Of a stretch of 33,752 nucleotides of DNA, positions 13,072-24,217 are shown piece by piece. This DNA comes from a virus, in the IMG/VR virus record IMGVR_UViG_3300025590_000024, positions 1-33,752 of that record. One strand, given 5' to 3'. The notes under the pieces were generated by a model, which saw nothing but the letters and a program-made list of their open reading frames with translations, had not been told where the DNA came from and did no database searches. Each line of letters opens with the position of its first letter. The stretch's first letter is position 1. A program made the translations under genes and the position numbers.

Positions 13072-13755
13072 TTAGAGAAACATTGGTTCAAAAAATGCGA
13101 GCTTGCTGCTGTACACTACGCCGCAACCTACAATAGGTTTGTTAGCGTACACTTTCCCGTACGCCATTGCTTCGTTACTGTGGTCAACTCCGCAACCCAC
13201 TTGCATTCCAAAGATACATTCACCTTGGTTTGCGTGGTAGACAACTCCAGCCTGTGCGTGAAGGTGTCCTTGAACGACTGACTTAAACTCGGAGATAGCA
13301 TTTTTATGTGCAGCCATGTGACCGCCCTTGCCCTTGTCGCCGTGTCGGTAAATAACCCGATCAATCTCTAGGTCTGCGTAGCGAGGGTGAATCGTCCAGC
13401 CATTGACTTGCCACAAGTCCTTGAAGCTTTTCATTACGTCATTGGGCAATCCAATCATGCGAGCCTTGCGTGCTGGCAGGGAGCTGTGGTTGCCAATCAT
13501 GTAGTCAACCTTGGGGAACGCCTTGTAGAGCTTCTGAACCTGCTTGTAGGCACGATTAAACTCTTCTACTGGTGATGGCATCGACGGATCTTTCTCGTGG
13601 AATGAAATACTATTCCAATCCACGAGATCACCGATGTGAACGACACGACCGCAGCCGTGTTTCTTCTGAATCTTTTTAAGAAAAGCAATGTAACCATCTA
13701 GCATTGCTGGTGCATGAGTGTCTCCTATTACTAGAACTGGTTTTGATTTTCCCAT
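13072..13755 (-). CDS. Calcineurin-like metallophosphoesterase
   Basis: A 227-residue protein with all the metal-site motifs of the family: GDTH (D12, H14), GDLVD (D43, D46), GNH (N89, H90), HGD (138-140) and GHLH (H164, H166). These bind a di-metal centre that hydrolyses phosphoesters; substrates vary (nucleic acid ends, cyclic nucleotides, phosphoproteins), and nothing here fixes which. Length is normal for the family. Its start is 5 bp after the stop of the upstream gene, so it is coupled. Phage enzymes of this type are often near replication genes and may trim DNA or RNA ends. Confidence 0.9.
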   Translation of the reverse strand: MGKSKPVLVIGDTHAPAMLDGYIAFLKKIQKKHGCGRVVHIGDLVDWNSISFHEKDPSMPSPVEEFNRAYKQVQKLYKAFPKVDYMIGNHSSLPARKARMIGLPNDVMKSFKDLWQVNGWTIHPRYADLEIDRVIYRHGDKGKGGHMAAHKNAISEFKSVVQGHLHAQAGVVYHANQGECIFGMQVGCGVDHSNEAMAYGKVYANKPIVGCGVVYSSKLAFFEPMFL

Positions 13756-13760
13756 AATAA

Positions 13761-13967
13761 TTATTCAGTTAATTCTGCTCCTTCTGCTAGTAGTCCAGCT
13801 AACTCAATGTCAGTTGTCAAGTATGACTTGTCATCTGGTGTAAGCCAATGGTAAAGCCATTCATCTTCTCCGCAGCTACCCGCCTCTGTTAATAGTTGGG
13901 CATCCCCTAATGTAAGTTTTAGTCCGAGTCCCGTGAGTTTTGTTCCGTCTTTTAAGTTATAGTTCAT
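13761..13967 (-). CDS. Small unknown protein
   Basis: A 68-residue acidic protein (MNYNLKDGTKLTGLGLKLTLGDAQLLTEAG...WLYHWLTPDDKSYLTTDIELAGLLAEGAELTE). It starts after a CA-rich leader without Shine-Dalgarno (ccactaacaccaaccacaataactATG, split as in the other early genes). It probably forms one operon with the phosphoesterase 5 bp downstream. No family recognised. Confidence 0.65.
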   Translation of the reverse strand: MNYNLKDGTKLTGLGLKLTLGDAQLLTEAGSCGEDEWLYHWLTPDDKSYLTTDIELAGLLAEGAELTE

Positions 13968-14026
13968 AGTTATTGTGGTTGGTGTTAGTGGTTATAATGC
14001 TGCTGGTTTATTTGATGTCAAGGGTA

Positions 14027-14266
14027 TTAGTTTTGATTAAGTACGTGGCGTTCTTCTAGCTGGTTATTGCGAGCAATAAGTTCTTCGCATCTCAAATTCA
14101 ATGCCTCCAGTTTTTCTTCGGACATTCTTAAAACCTTCTCATTAGCTTGAAGGCAGTTCTCTAGTTGGCTGATAGCGTTTTGCAATATCTTACGCTCCGA
14201 TGGCTGGAACATTGGTCTGCGATTTGTGTGATGGAATGCTGTGACTGGTTGTTCTGTGTCTGTCAT
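14027..14266 (-). CDS. Small coiled-coil protein
   Basis: A 79-residue protein. Residues about 22-74 form a long charged amphipathic helix (ILQNAISQLENCLQANEKVL..., EEKLEALNLRCEELIARNNQLEE) with leucines at heptad spacing, a likely dimeric coiled coil. The first 20 residues are polar. The leader is CA-rich (caacaacccaaaagcaattATG). Unknown function; possibly a subunit-bridging or regulatory protein. Confidence 0.65.
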   Translation of the reverse strand: MTDTEQPVTAFHHTNRRPMFQPSERKILQNAISQLENCLQANEKVLRMSEEKLEALNLRCEELIARNNQLEERHVLNQN

Positions 14267-14289
14267 AATTGCTTTTGGGTTGTTGATTA

Positions 14290-14466
14290 TTATTTTGATA
14301 GGATTACGGGTGTAGCTGGCGGTTCGCCAACTGGAATATTGGAAGGCTCTTGCTGAGAGTTTACGTCTGTAAGAATGACTTCATCTTTACAGTCGCAACA
14401 GCAGCAGCAATGAGGATGTGCTGACAGGAAACTGGCTGTAAATAGGGTGATTAGTATTGTTTTCAT
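14290..14466 (-). CDS. Secreted cysteine-rich microprotein
   Basis: A 58-residue open frame shorter than the usual cut-off. It starts MKTILITLFTASFLSAHPH, a typical signal peptide, followed at once by five consecutive cysteines and one more (CCCCCDC), then an acidic, proline-rich tail ending PPATPVILSK. The start lies after a CA-rich leader (acaacaaacccacatacattATG) like its neighbours and fits neatly between the 14266 and 15249 genes. It may be a metal-binding or disulphide-linked periplasmic peptide, or a lipoprotein, although a clean lipobox is absent. The family is unknown to me. Confidence 0.6.
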   Translation of the reverse strand: MKTILITLFTASFLSAHPHCCCCCDCKDEVILTDVNSQQEPSNIPVGEPPATPVILSK

Positions 14467-14485
14467 AATGTATGTGGGTTTGTTG

Positions 14486-15244
14486 TTAGATTAGTCCTTC
14501 TGAGAGAATGTTGAATGCTGTTGCAGCCACCGCTGGGTCTTGTCCGTTGCCGATTGCCTGGAGTCGCTTTCCCCAATTTTTGTCCAACCCAGAGGCCAAC
14601 CCATCCGCAACTCGTTCCACTGAGGATTGATCTTTCCTCCGATTTGAGCCGATAGCGTCGGAGTTTTGCGTGTAAACTCTGCTGGATACGCCCCCTCCTT
14701 TGAGTTGTGGCTGGTCGGTGTAGGCAAGTATCCAAATTCGCTTGCGGTGGTGATCGGCTCCAATATCTTTGCTGCCCAGCACACACCATCTTGCATGATA
14801 CCCCAGGTTCCTAATGTCGTTAAGAACTCTAGAGAGTCCCTTTGCTCTAAGATTTGGGGAGTTTTCAATAAACACAAACTTAGGCCGAATTTCTCCAGCG
14901 ACTCTAGCCATCTCTGACCATAGCCCCGACTTCTCTCCGTCAAGTCCTCGCTGCGTTCCGTTGACATTATTGTTTGTCCTGGCTGAACTGAGGTCAGTGC
15001 AGGGGAATCCCCCGCAAAGAACGTCAACTGATCCGCGCCAAGGATTTCCGTCGAGTGTACAGACATCGTCCCAGATGGGGAAGGTGGGTAGGATTCCGTC
15101 ACGCTGTCTTGCGAGCAGGACGTCTCTTGGGTAGGGTTCGATTTCGCAAGCTCCGATTGGATTGTGTCCAAGTAGGAGATCACCGAGAATGCCGCCACCT
15201 GCTCCTGCGAAGAGGTGGAATGTGTTGAGTTTTGTGTGTGCCAT
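14486..15244 (-). CDS. DNA (cytosine-5) methyltransferase
   Basis: A 252-residue protein with the C5-methyltransferase motifs in order: I FAGAGGG (12-18, SAM binding), IV GGFPCTDLS with catalytic C82, VI ENS (127-129), VIII HHRKRIW (165-171) and X GNGQDPAVAA (232-241). The region between VIII and X is short, so the target-recognition domain is small. There is no cognate restriction gene, so it is an orphan, probably protecting phage DNA against host enzymes or altering packaging or expression. The recognition site cannot be read from sequence. The ATG is the second of two (ATGacATGgca); the first opens a different, equally long frame (next entry). Confidence 0.93.
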   Translation of the reverse strand: MAHTKLNTFHLFAGAGGGILGDLLLGHNPIGACEIEPYPRDVLLARQRDGILPTFPIWDDVCTLDGNPWRGSVDVLCGGFPCTDLSSARTNNNVNGTQRGLDGEKSGLWSEMARVAGEIRPKFVFIENSPNLRAKGLSRVLNDIRNLGYHARWCVLGSKDIGADHHRKRIWILAYTDQPQLKGGGVSSRVYTQNSDAIGSNRRKDQSSVERVADGLASGLDKNWGKRLQAIGNGQDPAVAATAFNILSEGLI

Positions 15245-15249
15245 GTCAT
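14491..15249 (-). CDS. Overlapping alternative-frame ORF on the methyltransferase gene
   Basis: An open frame of exactly 252 codons, starting 5 bases before and stopping 5 bases before the methyltransferase. Its ATG is the first one after the CA-rich leader (caaaactcaccacataaaATG), the position used by other early genes. The product has LPTPTSHNSKEG (from residue 175) and NPQWNELRMGWPLGWT (208-223). This matches the LPTPTASD...NPxWVEWLMGxPxGWT pattern that I know from many phage proteins deposited beside or over methyltransferases. It is either truly translated or a conserved shadow of the methyltransferase codons; the sequence alone cannot decide. Confidence 0.35.
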   Translation of the reverse strand: MTWHTQNSTHSTSSQEQVAAFSVISYLDTIQSELAKSNPTQETSCSQDSVTESYPPSPSGTMSVHSTEILGADQLTFFAGDSPALTSVQPGQTIMSTERSEDLTERSRGYGQRWLESLEKFGLSLCLLKTPQILEQRDSLEFLTTLGTWGIMQDGVCWAAKILEPITTASEFGYLPTPTSHNSKEGAYPAEFTRKTPTLSAQIGGKINPQWNELRMGWPLGWTKIGESDSRQSATDKTQRWLQQHSTFSQKD

Positions 15250-15270
15250 TTTATGTGGTGAGTTTTGTGT

Positions 15271-15549
15271 TTATCTGAAATGTTTATTCTCTTCCCACTC
15301 ACGTTCCCGCGATTCATCCGCACGCCATTCAGCTTCTTCCGCTGCGTAAACGTCAGCCAATAATCTTGTGGCTACACAGATTTCTGCTTCGCATTCTGAG
15401 TGAAGTGCAAACTCCTCGGCACTCGTGTCATCGTGAAACTCGTCATTGATTTTTTTCAATGCGGTTTCTAGGTCTTCCAGTTCCTCCGTTCCAAGTACAT
15501 TTTTAATATCTGAAAGGATTACTTTTAGTCGTGATTTTGTATTGTTCAT
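15271..15549 (-). CDS. Small acidic helical protein
   Basis: A 92-residue, strongly acidic protein (many E/D; KIND EFHDDTSAEEF, AAEEAEWRADESREREWEE), predicted all-helical. It starts after a clear CA-rich leader (cgacaaccacaacaacataacattATG, written 5'->3' on this strand). No family recognised. Small acidic early proteins sometimes mimic DNA or bind host factors; this is only a possibility. Confidence 0.65.
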   Translation of the reverse strand: MNNTKSRLKVILSDIKNVLGTEELEDLETALKKINDEFHDDTSAEEFALHSECEAEICVATRLLADVYAAEEAEWRADESREREWEENKHFR

Positions 15550-15584
15550 AATGTTATGTTGTTGTGGTTGTCGTTGATGTCAAA

Positions 15585-16910
15585 TTAAAAATTATCTACC
15601 ATTGTCTGGTGAGTTACTTGGAAGTCAATACCAACTGTGGTAAGGATACCATTGCGGCACTTCTCCTGCTTAACAGTCTGATAGTAAACTGGTTGACCTT
15701 CCTCTTGAATCTGCCCGTTAGAGTCTCGCTCTGGTCGCTCAATCCTCCAGAAGATGGTAGCATCGTTAAAGATTGCCCGTGATTCACGAGCCTTGCCCTC
15801 CTCGTTTAGCTGTGTGCCAGAGAATGCAACGCAGCGTAGTGACTTCTGCAAACGCTGAATGCCTCCACTCATAGCAGCCACTTCCGCCTCCCGATTGCCC
15901 TTGCCAGAGCCATCCATGATTTGAATGTAGTCAACGCAAAGGATATCAATCTTGCCACACTTAGCTGCAATCTCACGGCAGCGAGTTGTCACGCCACTCA
16001 TAGATTCTGGTGAGTCAAACAAGAACAGTCGGCTGTCCGTCTCTTCCTTCAGCATATTCAAGCACTTGACATATAGCTTCTGCTTGTCTCCAGGGACTGT
16101 GTTCAGCGGCTGACGAGTGTCGATCTTAGCGTAGGAACACGCCGTGTTGTGCCACCAATCTTCCTTGGAACTCTCCAGCAAGAATGCTACAACAATCCAG
16201 TCCTTGTGCTTAAACAAGTTGTGAACAATAATTTGACGCTTTAACGCTGACTTGCCACGCGAACTTGGTGCTGCAATGATAATGTTATTATCCTTGCGGC
16301 GACGATCAATGTGTCCCAGCGTCTCCTCTAGGTGCTTCATGCCCGTGTAAACACGATACTCTTCGGGGATTCGATCCTCCTCCCCGCGAAGCTCCTTCAT
16401 CTTCTGGTCAATAAATTCTACGATCTCCTCCTTGGCTGTCTTATCATCGTCGGCTAGAGTGAGCGTAGATATCTCATTCATCGGCTCGGATATGGCAACC
16501 TTGATATCTTCTGCGGATGCTAGTGGCATCTGTAGCTTCTCCAGCATACTGCGAGTTGCGTGAATCATCTTCCTCTGAAGGAACTTGTTGCGAACATTGC
16601 GTAAAGCCGCAACCCACGTGGACGTATAAACAATTGGCAGAGCCATCATAAGTGACATTGCTGTGTCTACTTCCATTCGATCCTTTGCCATATTCGATTG
16701 AAGAACTGGCAGAACTGAAAGCTCGCTGATGTCTTGCCCAGCATCGAAGACTTGGCGAATAGATTCAAACATGACTTGATTCTCAAGCGAGAAAAACCAA
16801 TCCTTGGTTGCTCCCTCTGCAATGATCGAAGCCGCATCGTGCTGTAACATTTGACCGAGGATCGTCTGCTCGGATTGAAGGCTGTGGGGGTAATTTTCTG
16901 CTATGTCCAT
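15585..16910 (-). CDS. DnaB-like replicative helicase
   Basis: A 441-residue protein. An N-terminal helical domain (about 1-110, LQSEQTILGQML) is followed by a RecA-like motor: Walker A APSSRGKS (214-221), Walker B ILCVDYIQIM (323-332) with D327, and SGTQLNEEG (364-372) in the position of the DnaB LSQLNR-type motif. It unwinds DNA at the fork as a hexamer. The length is normal for DnaB. Its ATG lies inside the last codons of the initiator gene (10-bp overlap), so loader/initiator and helicase are coupled. No separate primase gene is seen, so priming probably uses the host enzyme. Confidence 0.9.
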   Translation of the reverse strand: MDIAENYPHSLQSEQTILGQMLQHDAASIIAEGATKDWFFSLENQVMFESIRQVFDAGQDISELSVLPVLQSNMAKDRMEVDTAMSLMMALPIVYTSTWVAALRNVRNKFLQRKMIHATRSMLEKLQMPLASAEDIKVAISEPMNEISTLTLADDDKTAKEEIVEFIDQKMKELRGEEDRIPEEYRVYTGMKHLEETLGHIDRRRKDNNIIIAAPSSRGKSALKRQIIVHNLFKHKDWIVVAFLLESSKEDWWHNTACSYAKIDTRQPLNTVPGDKQKLYVKCLNMLKEETDSRLFLFDSPESMSGVTTRCREIAAKCGKIDILCVDYIQIMDGSGKGNREAEVAAMSGGIQRLQKSLRCVAFSGTQLNEEGKARESRAIFNDATIFWRIERPERDSNGQIQEEGQPVYYQTVKQEKCRNGILTTVGIDFQVTHQTMVDNF

Positions 16911-17779
16911 TGTGGTGGTGTTCCTAGTTTTGGTTGTGGTTGATGATTCTTTCTATGCCAATCGGCAGCCCTGTCAAGCTCTCCCGAAAAATTGTTTAGC
17001 AGAGTCGCGTAGCTTTTGCGAGCGTAAGTTTCTTTTTGTGGTGCTGCGTAGAATGCTTCTATCTGTTGCCACTCCCGTTCGGTTGTTGACTTAACAATCT
17101 TCTCGGCTGACTGCCAAGCGGATAGTTCAGATTTGTCTAGAGTCCTTTCCTCTGGACGATTGAATAATTTCTCGGAACGCAACTGGTGAGCCTCCTTCGT
17201 TGGAACATAAGTAGTTTTATTATCTTCTTTTCTTCTTAACTTCTTATCTTCTTTAGATGTGGTTACTTTGCGGTTAGTTTGCTGGTTAGTTGCTGGTTGA
17301 TCTGTGGTTGATTTGCGGTTAGCTGAGTTTTTCTCGGTGCTGTAAGTGTCGTATTGACAGTCACTTAGTGAAGAATCTTGATGGTTAGTTGCTGGTTGAT
17401 CTGTGGTTGATTTGCGGTTAGTTTGCTGGTTAGTTTGCTGGTTAGCTGCTGGTTGATCTACGCTTTTATCGGGGTTGTAAGTGTCGTAATGACAGACACT
17501 TAGGATAGAAAACTTGCTGGTTACTTGCTGGTTGATTGACTGTGAGTTTACTAGCTTTTTGATGGTTGTTCTGATGGTTTGTTCAGACAGACCTAGCTGC
17601 TCAGATAGTGCCTTTCGACCCGTGACGATTGATCCGCGAGGAATATCGTAACCCTTGTAGGTTGATTCATTCCAGTTAGCCTTGAGCATTAGATGCAAGA
17701 AGACACGGACGCAATTGGTATCGTCATACCATTCCCATTCAGTCATCTTTCGATATAGTTTTATGTAAGTCCCGTTCAT
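16901..17779 (-). CDS. DnaD-like replication initiator / replisome organiser
   Basis: A 292-residue protein. Residues 1-110 match the N-terminal winged-helix domain of phage replisome organisers: YIKLYRKMTEWEWYDD, IPRGSIVTGRKALSEQLGLSEQTIRTTIKKLV, then SVCHYDTYN. Residues about 110-175 are a repeated Gln/Asn/Thr-rich linker (DQPAANQQTNQQTNRKSTT...), including a second DCQYDTYS copy, produced by internal duplication. The C-terminal part (ARKSYATLLNNFSGELDRAADWHR) is probably the helicase-contact region. It overlaps the helicase gene by 10 bp. It starts after the clearest CA-rich leader of the genome (ccacaaccacaacaataaaATG). The repeats may double as the replication origin. Confidence 0.8.
   Translation of the reverse strand: MNGTYIKLYRKMTEWEWYDDTNCVRVFLHLMLKANWNESTYKGYDIPRGSIVTGRKALSEQLGLSEQTIRTTIKKLVNSQSINQQVTSKFSILSVCHYDTYNPDKSVDQPAANQQTNQQTNRKSTTDQPATNHQDSSLSDCQYDTYSTEKNSANRKSTTDQPATNQQTNRKVTTSKEDKKLRRKEDNKTTYVPTKEAHQLRSEKLFNRPEERTLDKSELSAWQSAEKIVKSTTEREWQQIEAFYAAPQKETYARKSYATLLNNFSGELDRAADWHRKNHQPQPKLGTPPQWT
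17283..17421. repeat. Two identical 40-bp direct repeats inside the initiator gene
   Basis: Copies at 17283-17322 and 17382-17421 (start TGGTTAGTTGCTGGTTGATC on the + strand); a degenerate part-copy occurs at about 17438-17458. The core GGTTAG/GGTTGAT recurs many times around them. Such iteron-like arrays inside an initiator gene resemble the lambda O-gene origin arrangement. Confidence 0.9.
17343..17502. repeat. Pair of inverted repeats inside the initiator gene
   Basis: At 17478-17502, TAAGTGTC and GACACTTA form perfect 8-bp arms around 9 bases. At 17343-17367, TAAGTG and CACTTA form a related dyad. They lie 135 bp apart (45 codons) and correspond to the duplicated CxYDTY protein segment. 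They may be hairpins or protein-binding sites at an origin. Confidence 0.75.
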
Positions 17780-23493: not shown

Positions 23494-24117
23494 CTATCGC
23501 CCCCAACTTTCTTTAATCGAAACCCATACAATGGCTTGCAACTCATAACCCTTTAAATCGCTTTCTTTTGCGATTTGCGCGGTGATGGCTTCTATTCTTC
23601 TGTATTGCTTTGCTGTTACTGTTTCGACTGTTTCGGTGATGCCGTCTTTAGGTTTAACTAAACAGGCGCGAATGTGCCATTTATCAATTGTAATATGTTC
23701 GCTTGACAATAAGCCAACATTCATTGCAAAGGCGTGTGTTTTAGGCGCACTTGACGCAATGCGTTCGCCTTCATTCAATGCTCTAAAGGCTTTCAACTTG
23801 TTGGGCGTGTATGTGCAGACCTTTACAGATTCAGCTCCAAGGCCATTCTTCCAAGCGGTAATAACTGCCCTTGCGTCGATCTTGTTGCGTTCCCATTTAT
23901 TGTTAGGCGAAAGCATTGAAATAACGCTTGCGACAATATACGCGGGCAAGTCAAATTCCTTTGCTAGTGACTTGCAAAAGGCTTGCGCTTCTTTATACCA
24001 TTCCAAGCCGATTTGCTTGTTTTCATCGCTTGCGCTTGCTAGCCAAGATTTAAGATTTGCGCGGATTTGCGCGTCTGTTGCGCTTGCTACTGACAGTTTA
24101 TTTCTGTTATTTTTCAT
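23494..24117 (-). CDS. DNA-glycosylase-like (HhH-type) protein, source of the copied fragment
   Basis: A 207-residue helical protein. SVISMLSPNNKWERNK (from about residue 66) and HITIDKWHIRACLVKP (about 142-157) recall the LSP/T..N and VDTHVxR regions of HhH-GPD base-excision glycosylases; the second has D and R at similar spacing. I recognise related uncharacterised proteins in other phages, but activity is not proven and the fold call is by eye. The 63 bases encoding KWERN...NGLG are identical to part of the late gene 6009-6515. The leader is ACCACAA-type (gaaaaccacaaaccaaaagaaaaATG). A short upstream frame (24107-24142, 11 codons, MKTTNQKKNEK) overlaps its start. Confidence 0.6.
   Translation of the reverse strand: MKNNRNKLSVASATDAQIRANLKSWLASASDENKQIGLEWYKEAQAFCKSLAKEFDLPAYIVASVISMLSPNNKWERNKIDARAVITAWKNGLGAESVKVCTYTPNKLKAFRALNEGERIASSAPKTHAFAMNVGLLSSEHITIDKWHIRACLVKPKDGITETVETVTAKQYRRIEAITAQIAKESDLKGYELQAIVWVSIKESWGR
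23836..23898 (-). repeat. 63-bp exact duplicate of 6366-6428 (opposite strand)
   Basis: Reverse complement identical over all 63 bases. Here it forms part of an apparently intact domain, with helices continuing on both sides, so this copy is likely the donor. Confidence 0.97.
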
Positions 24118-24152
24118 TTTTCTTTTGGTTTGTGGTTTTCATTTGCCAGGTG

Positions 24153-24202
24153 TTGGCGCGCCAAAGCCCGCGCAATCAATTAAGAAGGGCGGGCGCAAGG
24201 TT
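24153..24202 (-). terminator. GC hairpin and 12-bp palindrome after the 48-residue gene
   Basis: On the minus strand GCCCGC (near 24198) pairs with GCGGGC (near 24168) and is followed by TTT, a terminator-like structure about 20 bp after the stop at 24218. Immediately after it is the perfect palindrome TTGGCGCGCCAA (24153-24164). Confidence 0.5.
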
Positions 24203-24217
24203 TAGGCTCTTACTTGG

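Follow-up and report, generated by a model that had tools for sequence, protein, structure and literature searches.

A stretch of 33,752 nucleotides of viral DNA (IMG/VR record IMGVR_UViG_3300025590_000024), referred to here as the window, contains a C5-cytosine DNA methyltransferase gene in which a second reading frame stays open over nearly the whole gene. This locus raises two questions: whether the second frame is a gene, and what its product might contribute. The methyltransferase frame is termed alpha and the second frame beta. Both are 252 codons long and begin with ATG, and beta runs 5 bases ahead of alpha at both ends, exactly as described in the original prediction, which had been made from the DNA letters.

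Overlapping frames and paired start codons

The ORF listing places the overlap of alpha and beta at positions 14491-15244, with beta in the +1 frame. The beta sequence contains the predicted LPTPT and NPQWNELRMGWPLGWT, the latter overlying ADGLASGLD of the methyltransferase. The features of the locus are collected in Table 1, where the numbering of alpha motifs I, IV, VI and VIII follows the usage of the C5-methyltransferase literature. The minus-strand neighbours within window positions 13072-17779 encode a metallophosphoesterase (13072-13755), a DnaB-like helicase (15585-16910) and a DnaD-like loader (16901-17779); the alpha/beta pair sits in a phage replication module. Elsewhere in the window, two 207-residue ORFs on opposite strands overlap almost fully (23494-24117, minus; 23582-24205, plus). 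The minus-strand ORF matches phrog_3842, and the plus-strand ORF is probably spurious.

Table 1 Features of the alpha/beta locus in window coordinates.
Feature	Position	Strand	Remarks
alpha: C5-cytosine DNA methyltransferase, predicted catalytic half (motifs I-VIII and X), 252 aa	14486..15244	-	ATG start
beta: 252-aa product of the +1 frame of alpha, probable motif-IX / target-recognition subunit	14491..15249	-	ATG start
Paired start codons ATGACATG	15242..15249	-	beta ATG 15249-15247, alpha ATG 15244-15242, 5 nt apart
alpha motif I (LFAGAGGG)	15191..15214	-	Position read from sequence
alpha motif IV (GGFPC, catalytic Cys)	14999..15013	-	G79-C82 invariant over 47 alpha sequences
alpha motif VI (...ENSP)	14855..14887	-	E127 and N128 invariant (47 alpha sequences)
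alpha motif VIII (GADHHRKRIW)	14732..14761	-	R167 and R169 invariant (47 alpha sequences)
alpha motif X (RLQAIGNGQDPAV)	14528..14566	-	alpha C-terminal profile aligns with canonical motif X
beta LPTPT module	14713..14727	-	Position read from sequence
beta motif-IX-like segment KINPQWNELRMGWPLGWT	14581..14634	-	Profile match to canonical motif IX, weak

The leader 5' of the beta ATG reads ...ACACAAAACTCACCACATAAA-ATG and holds no Shine-Dalgarno-like sequence, and the same is true of 20 of the 24 members of its start class. This class, with ATGNNATG and the beta ATG located 5 nt upstream of the alpha start, comprises 24 of 141 relatives (window included) that were gathered as described below. 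In a further 98 of the 141 the alpha start is embedded in NTGAATG (49 ATG, 33 GTG and 16 TTG), with the beta ATG 4 nt downstream and the TGA closing the beta frame just before that ATG. The two start codons are therefore 4-5 nt apart in 122 of the 141 relatives, such that one initiation region can serve both proteins. The remaining 19 are arranged otherwise, and in more distant members the beta start lies inside alpha.

Stop codons and selection in the second frame

When the synonymous codons of the window alpha were shuffled 100 times, the +1 frame acquired a mean of 3.8 stops and was open in none of the shuffles, in agreement with the earlier view that an open second frame of 252 codons is unlikely by chance. 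Matched to a second-frame profile of 22 sequences, the window itself among them, the actual +1 translation reached 291.9 bits, whereas the maximum of 10 shuffles was 139.8 bits. The relatives were gathered by the methyltransferase frame only, using a search with the window protein and a search with an alpha alignment (80 loci each). The loci behind the alignment of the second search had themselves been located through beta, although this search was run with alpha peptide patterns. Together with the window, the 158 newly numbered loci yielded the 141 relatives after identical proteins and those shorter than 200 residues were dropped. Stops were counted in ten-residue bins along the window alpha, with the expectation derived gene by gene from synonymous codon shuffles.

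Stops at normal frequency in homologues had been named as an outcome that would speak against a second gene. Between alpha residues 10 and 239, only 2 stops were observed in the +1 frame of the 141 non-redundant relatives versus ~637 expected, a comparison in which the relatives share descent and are not independent. No such depletion is seen before residue 10 (118 observed, 101 expected) or at residues 240-249 (73 observed, 44 expected), and thus the depletion starts and stops with beta. The canonical control consisted of 30 loci that were the top PF00145 matches when 150 genomes of a single phylum were sampled; 29 of them match nearly the full profile and one matches to position 233. These single-chain methyltransferases contain 466 stops in the +1 frame versus 484.7 expected, i.e. 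no depletion, and have no open +1 frame, unlike the window gene. An additional set of 11 distant short methyltransferases was taken from alpha searches of phage and plasmid collections, without knowledge of beta. With the GWP-like motif of beta as the 3' limit, this set contains 0 stops in the +1 frame versus 42.2 expected, and 109 versus 99.7 in the +2 control frame. A twelfth locus, L302, was excluded because one frameshift breaks both of its frames.

A few loci carry a stop in one frame only. The beta frame is broken by a single stop in L038 (3415-3417) and L039 (1877-1879), two contigs that may be the same phage. Seven loci with an in-frame alpha stop (L152, L193, L219, L227, L231, L280 and L292) keep beta open; in L193, L219 and L280 the stop is located directly after motif VIII, and alpha may therefore end there by design. 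In L010/L058, the nearest relative of the window, and in L302, which is Mycobacterium phage Ochi17, a single frameshift swaps both frames together. The broken frames in these few relatives may be sequencing errors or decaying copies.

Selection was examined in 33 disjoint pairs of relatives with 2-25% nucleotide difference, classing each substitution by its effect in both frames. The NN/NS of beta is 0.51 [0.43-0.59] versus 1.22 [1.13-1.33] for the unused +2 control frame, the intervals being derived from resampling of pairs, which does not allow for all relatedness. Free variation at methyltransferase-silent sites was the other adverse outcome that had been named. Instead, the rate of alpha-silent changes is 0.259 per site where beta is altered and 0.684 per site where the change is silent in both frames, whereas the same comparison in the unused +2 frame yields nearly equal values of 0.274 and 0.243. 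Strong purifying selection acts on the beta protein along its entire length. The constraint is opposite in the two parts of the gene. In motifs I-VIII alpha is the tighter frame (NN/NS of 0.18, compared with 0.64 [0.55-0.73] for beta and 1.36 for the control), whereas in the C-terminal third, which spans the TRD (target-recognition), IX and X regions, beta is tighter (0.44 versus 0.69 for alpha). The per-column identity at window residues 211-220 (EWLMGWPIGW in beta) is 0.72 for beta and 0.51 for alpha; at residues 231-240 (motif X of alpha) it is 0.76 for alpha and 0.46 for beta. The codon-position figures are 0.36/0.20/0.44 for the gene versus 0.23/0.17/0.61 for the flanking ORFs, a rough comparison with flanking ORFs of all frames mixed.

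The original prediction had considered that the second-frame motif could be a by-product of codon conservation, the second frame merely reflecting conserved methyltransferase residues and codon use. Much of the raw beta similarity is indeed induced: after synonymous shuffling, real methyltransferase genes retain group-median scores of ~110-131 bits with the second-frame profile. However, the group medians of the real genes are 230-282 bits, although the lowest real scores per group fall below the highest shuffle. Moreover, stops are lost in the relatives, near and distant, but not in the canonical enzymes, and silent sites are constrained only where beta is altered. The by-product explanation is scarcely credible, and the synonymous shuffles together with the substitution classes rule it out. 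Beta is a second gene rather than a by-product, and the proposal of a real dual-coding gene is supported by both the stop depletion and the substitution classes.

Proposed division of the methyltransferase motifs between alpha and beta

The PF00145 match of alpha (4.2e-27) is confined to profile positions 2-182 of 324; alpha also matches phrog_363 (3.6e-52). The AF2 model of alpha, computed with 47 sequences, has a pLDDT of 77.9 and is confident except for residues 183-232 (pLDDT below 50), which is the region where the conserved block of beta is encoded. The best structural match of the model is M.HhaI (2uyc_A), with a Z score of 22.4 and an rmsd of 2.5 over 194 aligned of 327 residues. Alpha residues 1-252 superpose on HhaI chain residues 5-323, such that both HhaI ends are covered and ~130 HhaI residues are unmatched. 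In comparison with canonical enzymes, the C-terminal profile of alpha aligns to motif X (hhalign E 0.0014) and not to motif IX. In C5-methyltransferases, according to PMC3404938, specific contacts with DNA are made by the small domain, in which motif IX and the variable region reside. Judged by the alignments and the model, alpha holds motifs I-VIII and X but lacks this small DNA-recognition domain. Alpha resembles the canonical M.HhaI and M.HaeIII in that it aligns to the large domain of HhaI, but at 252 residues, with a partial PF00145 match and a model devoid of the small domain with its TRD and motif IX, it is not a full-length single-chain enzyme.

Beta has no Pfam or NCBIfam match, and neither HNH nor any other Pfam family is matched at E<=1. 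It matches phrog_1008, a family labelled DNA methyltransferase (7.6e-11). When the C-terminal profile of beta (265 sequences) was compared with the 30 canonical enzymes, the best local match was motif IX (RLTPRECARLQGFPD), weak at E 0.016 and a probability of 2.9%; the beta segment that falls on it is NPxWxEWLMGWPxGWT. The conserved block of beta lies where motif IX should be. A IX-like string was found in 84 of the 141 betas, including that of the window, using loose patterns on which the count depends. Modelled with AF2 as a single chain, beta gave a poor result (mean pLDDT 56.6). Comparison with solved structures gave no match by sequence, apart from one chance-like match (E 0.09), and none by fold; the fold result is uninformative, because a model of this quality cannot be interpreted.

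Six relatives (L129, L134, L139, L189, L235 and L277) divide the enzyme differently. Their alpha ends soon after motif VIII, and their beta frame carries LPTP, the motif-IX-like block and then motif X, which is the canonical order. This order lends independent support to the assignment of motif IX to beta. In these loci, a complete enzyme requires translation of beta, and the TRD of this class can only be in beta. Separately, several W/L/F-PTP modules of ~30-40 residues each occur in the betas of L277 (2745-4260, six modules), L103 and L235. These modules resemble the arrayed target-recognition units of multispecific phage methyltransferases.

In the sample of 150 genomes, beta was matched at 0 of the 30 canonical loci versus 7 of 9 loci chosen for an early-ending PF00145 match (6 of 8 when only new loci are counted, because L344 was already known from the beta search). 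Beta was not matched in two of the early-ending loci: L339 lies close to the end of its contig, and L345 retains most of the family match. Every one of the 294 loci in which both profiles match displays the same +1 overlap, a result that is partly circular for the 136 found through beta, and no stand-alone beta without an overlapping methyltransferase was found among them. Beta is most likely the motif-IX subunit of the same enzyme as alpha, and the target-recognition part is probably in beta, in the LPTPT region.

The proposed two-subunit enzyme and its counterparts

The reading that we favour, and consider highly probable, is that the locus encodes a heterodimeric C5-methyltransferase of the M.EcoHK31I kind in two frames of the same DNA. 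Alpha would provide AdoMet binding and the catalytic site within the large domain, whereas beta would contribute motif IX (NPQWNELRMGWPLGWT) and probably target recognition through its LPTPT part, completing the small domain upon assembly of the two chains as a heterodimer. Ribosomes may initiate at either ATG, 5 nt apart, and a single leader would then yield comparable amounts of both halves. The presumed role of the enzyme is to methylate the phage genome and so guard it against restriction by the host.

Many overprinted viral proteins are novel accessory proteins, and beta could be a real overprinted gene that acts outside the methyltransferase, for example in anti-restriction, in the regulation of alpha or as a DNA-binding accessory. 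The lack of a recognizable domain and the poor stand-alone model are compatible with such a separate role. Nonetheless, none of the 30 canonical enzymes with a small domain has beta; the position and order of the conserved block agree with motif IX; in some relatives motif X, too, is read in the beta frame; and the +1 relation is identical in every locus with both profiles. A role outside the enzyme is therefore unlikely. Alternatively, +1 ribosomal frameshifting from alpha could generate a single-chain enzyme, in which case beta would not be made separately. In L129, L134 and L235, motifs I-VIII of the alpha frame followed by TRD, IX and X of the beta frame do add up to one complete canonical chain. 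However, the N-terminal part of beta, which would be absent from such a product, is also stop-free and under selection relative to the control frame, most relatives place a beta ATG next to the alpha start, and in the window a frameshifted product would lose motif X. We regard frameshifting as very improbable.

The heterodimer reading is best compared with enzymes of known organization. M.EcoHK31I is a two-polypeptide C5-methyltransferase that recognizes YGGCCR; its small polypeptide, of ~176 residues, is read in a different frame within the gene of its larger, 309-residue partner. PMC3404938 assigns motifs I-VIII and X, and also the predicted TRD, to the larger subunit and motif IX to the smaller polypeptide. 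The window pair is organized similarly in that alpha holds I-VIII and X and a second polypeptide is encoded in a different frame. It differs in that beta is as long as alpha, the genes are co-extensive with starts 5 nt apart, and the TRD is probably in beta. M.AquI (CYCGRG) is a split C5-methyltransferase with motif IX in the second polypeptide, according to the same source (PMC3404938). The six relatives with motif X in the beta frame share this division. In the window, by contrast, motif X (RLQAIGNGQDPAV) is in alpha, and beta overlaps all of alpha instead of following it. A third arrangement is the ShiLan type, in which an out-of-frame HNH endonuclease resides in phage methylases as a mobile insertion of sporadic distribution, as outlined in PMC11855218. 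The window gene likewise hides a second protein in the other frame of a phage DNA methylase gene, but there is no insertion, and in close relatives beta spans nearly the whole gene. An out-of-frame HNH insertion was rejected as an explanation of beta, which has no HNH match and spans the gene.

New in the present system are the full-length overlap, the paired starts and the spread over phages, bacteria and an archaeal plasmid. Members selected through alpha include phages of Mycobacterium, Synechococcus, Microcystis, Sulfitobacter, Klebsiella and Stenotrophomonas, and plasmids of Lacticaseibacillus, Bacteroides, two cyanobacteria and the archaeon Methanomethylovorans. Full-text searches of open-licence PMC papers brought up no description of this overlapping pair in phages, which is not proof of absence. 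On balance, we lean towards a broader proposal, in which most short (~220-290 residues) prokaryotic C5-methyltransferases of phages, plasmids, bacteria and archaea would be the catalytic half of an obligate heterodimer whose recognition half has been overlooked in the +1 frame. In the phage branch, starts 4-5 nt apart would then hold the yield of the two proteins from a single leader close to 1:1, and the repeated LPTP modules would act as interchangeable units of target recognition that make the enzymes multispecific. If true, few known pairs of fully overlapping genes would be older or more widespread.

The pair would be a strong natural system for the study of long overlapping genes, with two proteins of one enzyme under mutual constraint over ~750 bp. 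It makes testable the origin of overlapping genes, the sharing of starts 4-5 nt apart and the coupling of subunit amounts by overlap. Gene callers usually allow one frame, and many phage "DNA methyltransferases" may therefore be annotated half enzymes, for which tests of the protein expressed alone would fail or mislead. Databases also carry beta under the name DNA methyltransferase, and phrog_1008 may be a family of beta proteins. In Stenotrophomonas phage SOVA965 (L004, 995-1495), the annotated CDS WWO60469.1, a DNA-cytosine methyltransferase, is the beta frame, and alpha is omitted. In L285 (1143-2643), a methyltransferase N-terminus and the beta frame are united in one ORF by an insertion that contains an HNH-like stretch; this may be an out-of-frame homing insertion like that of ShiLan.
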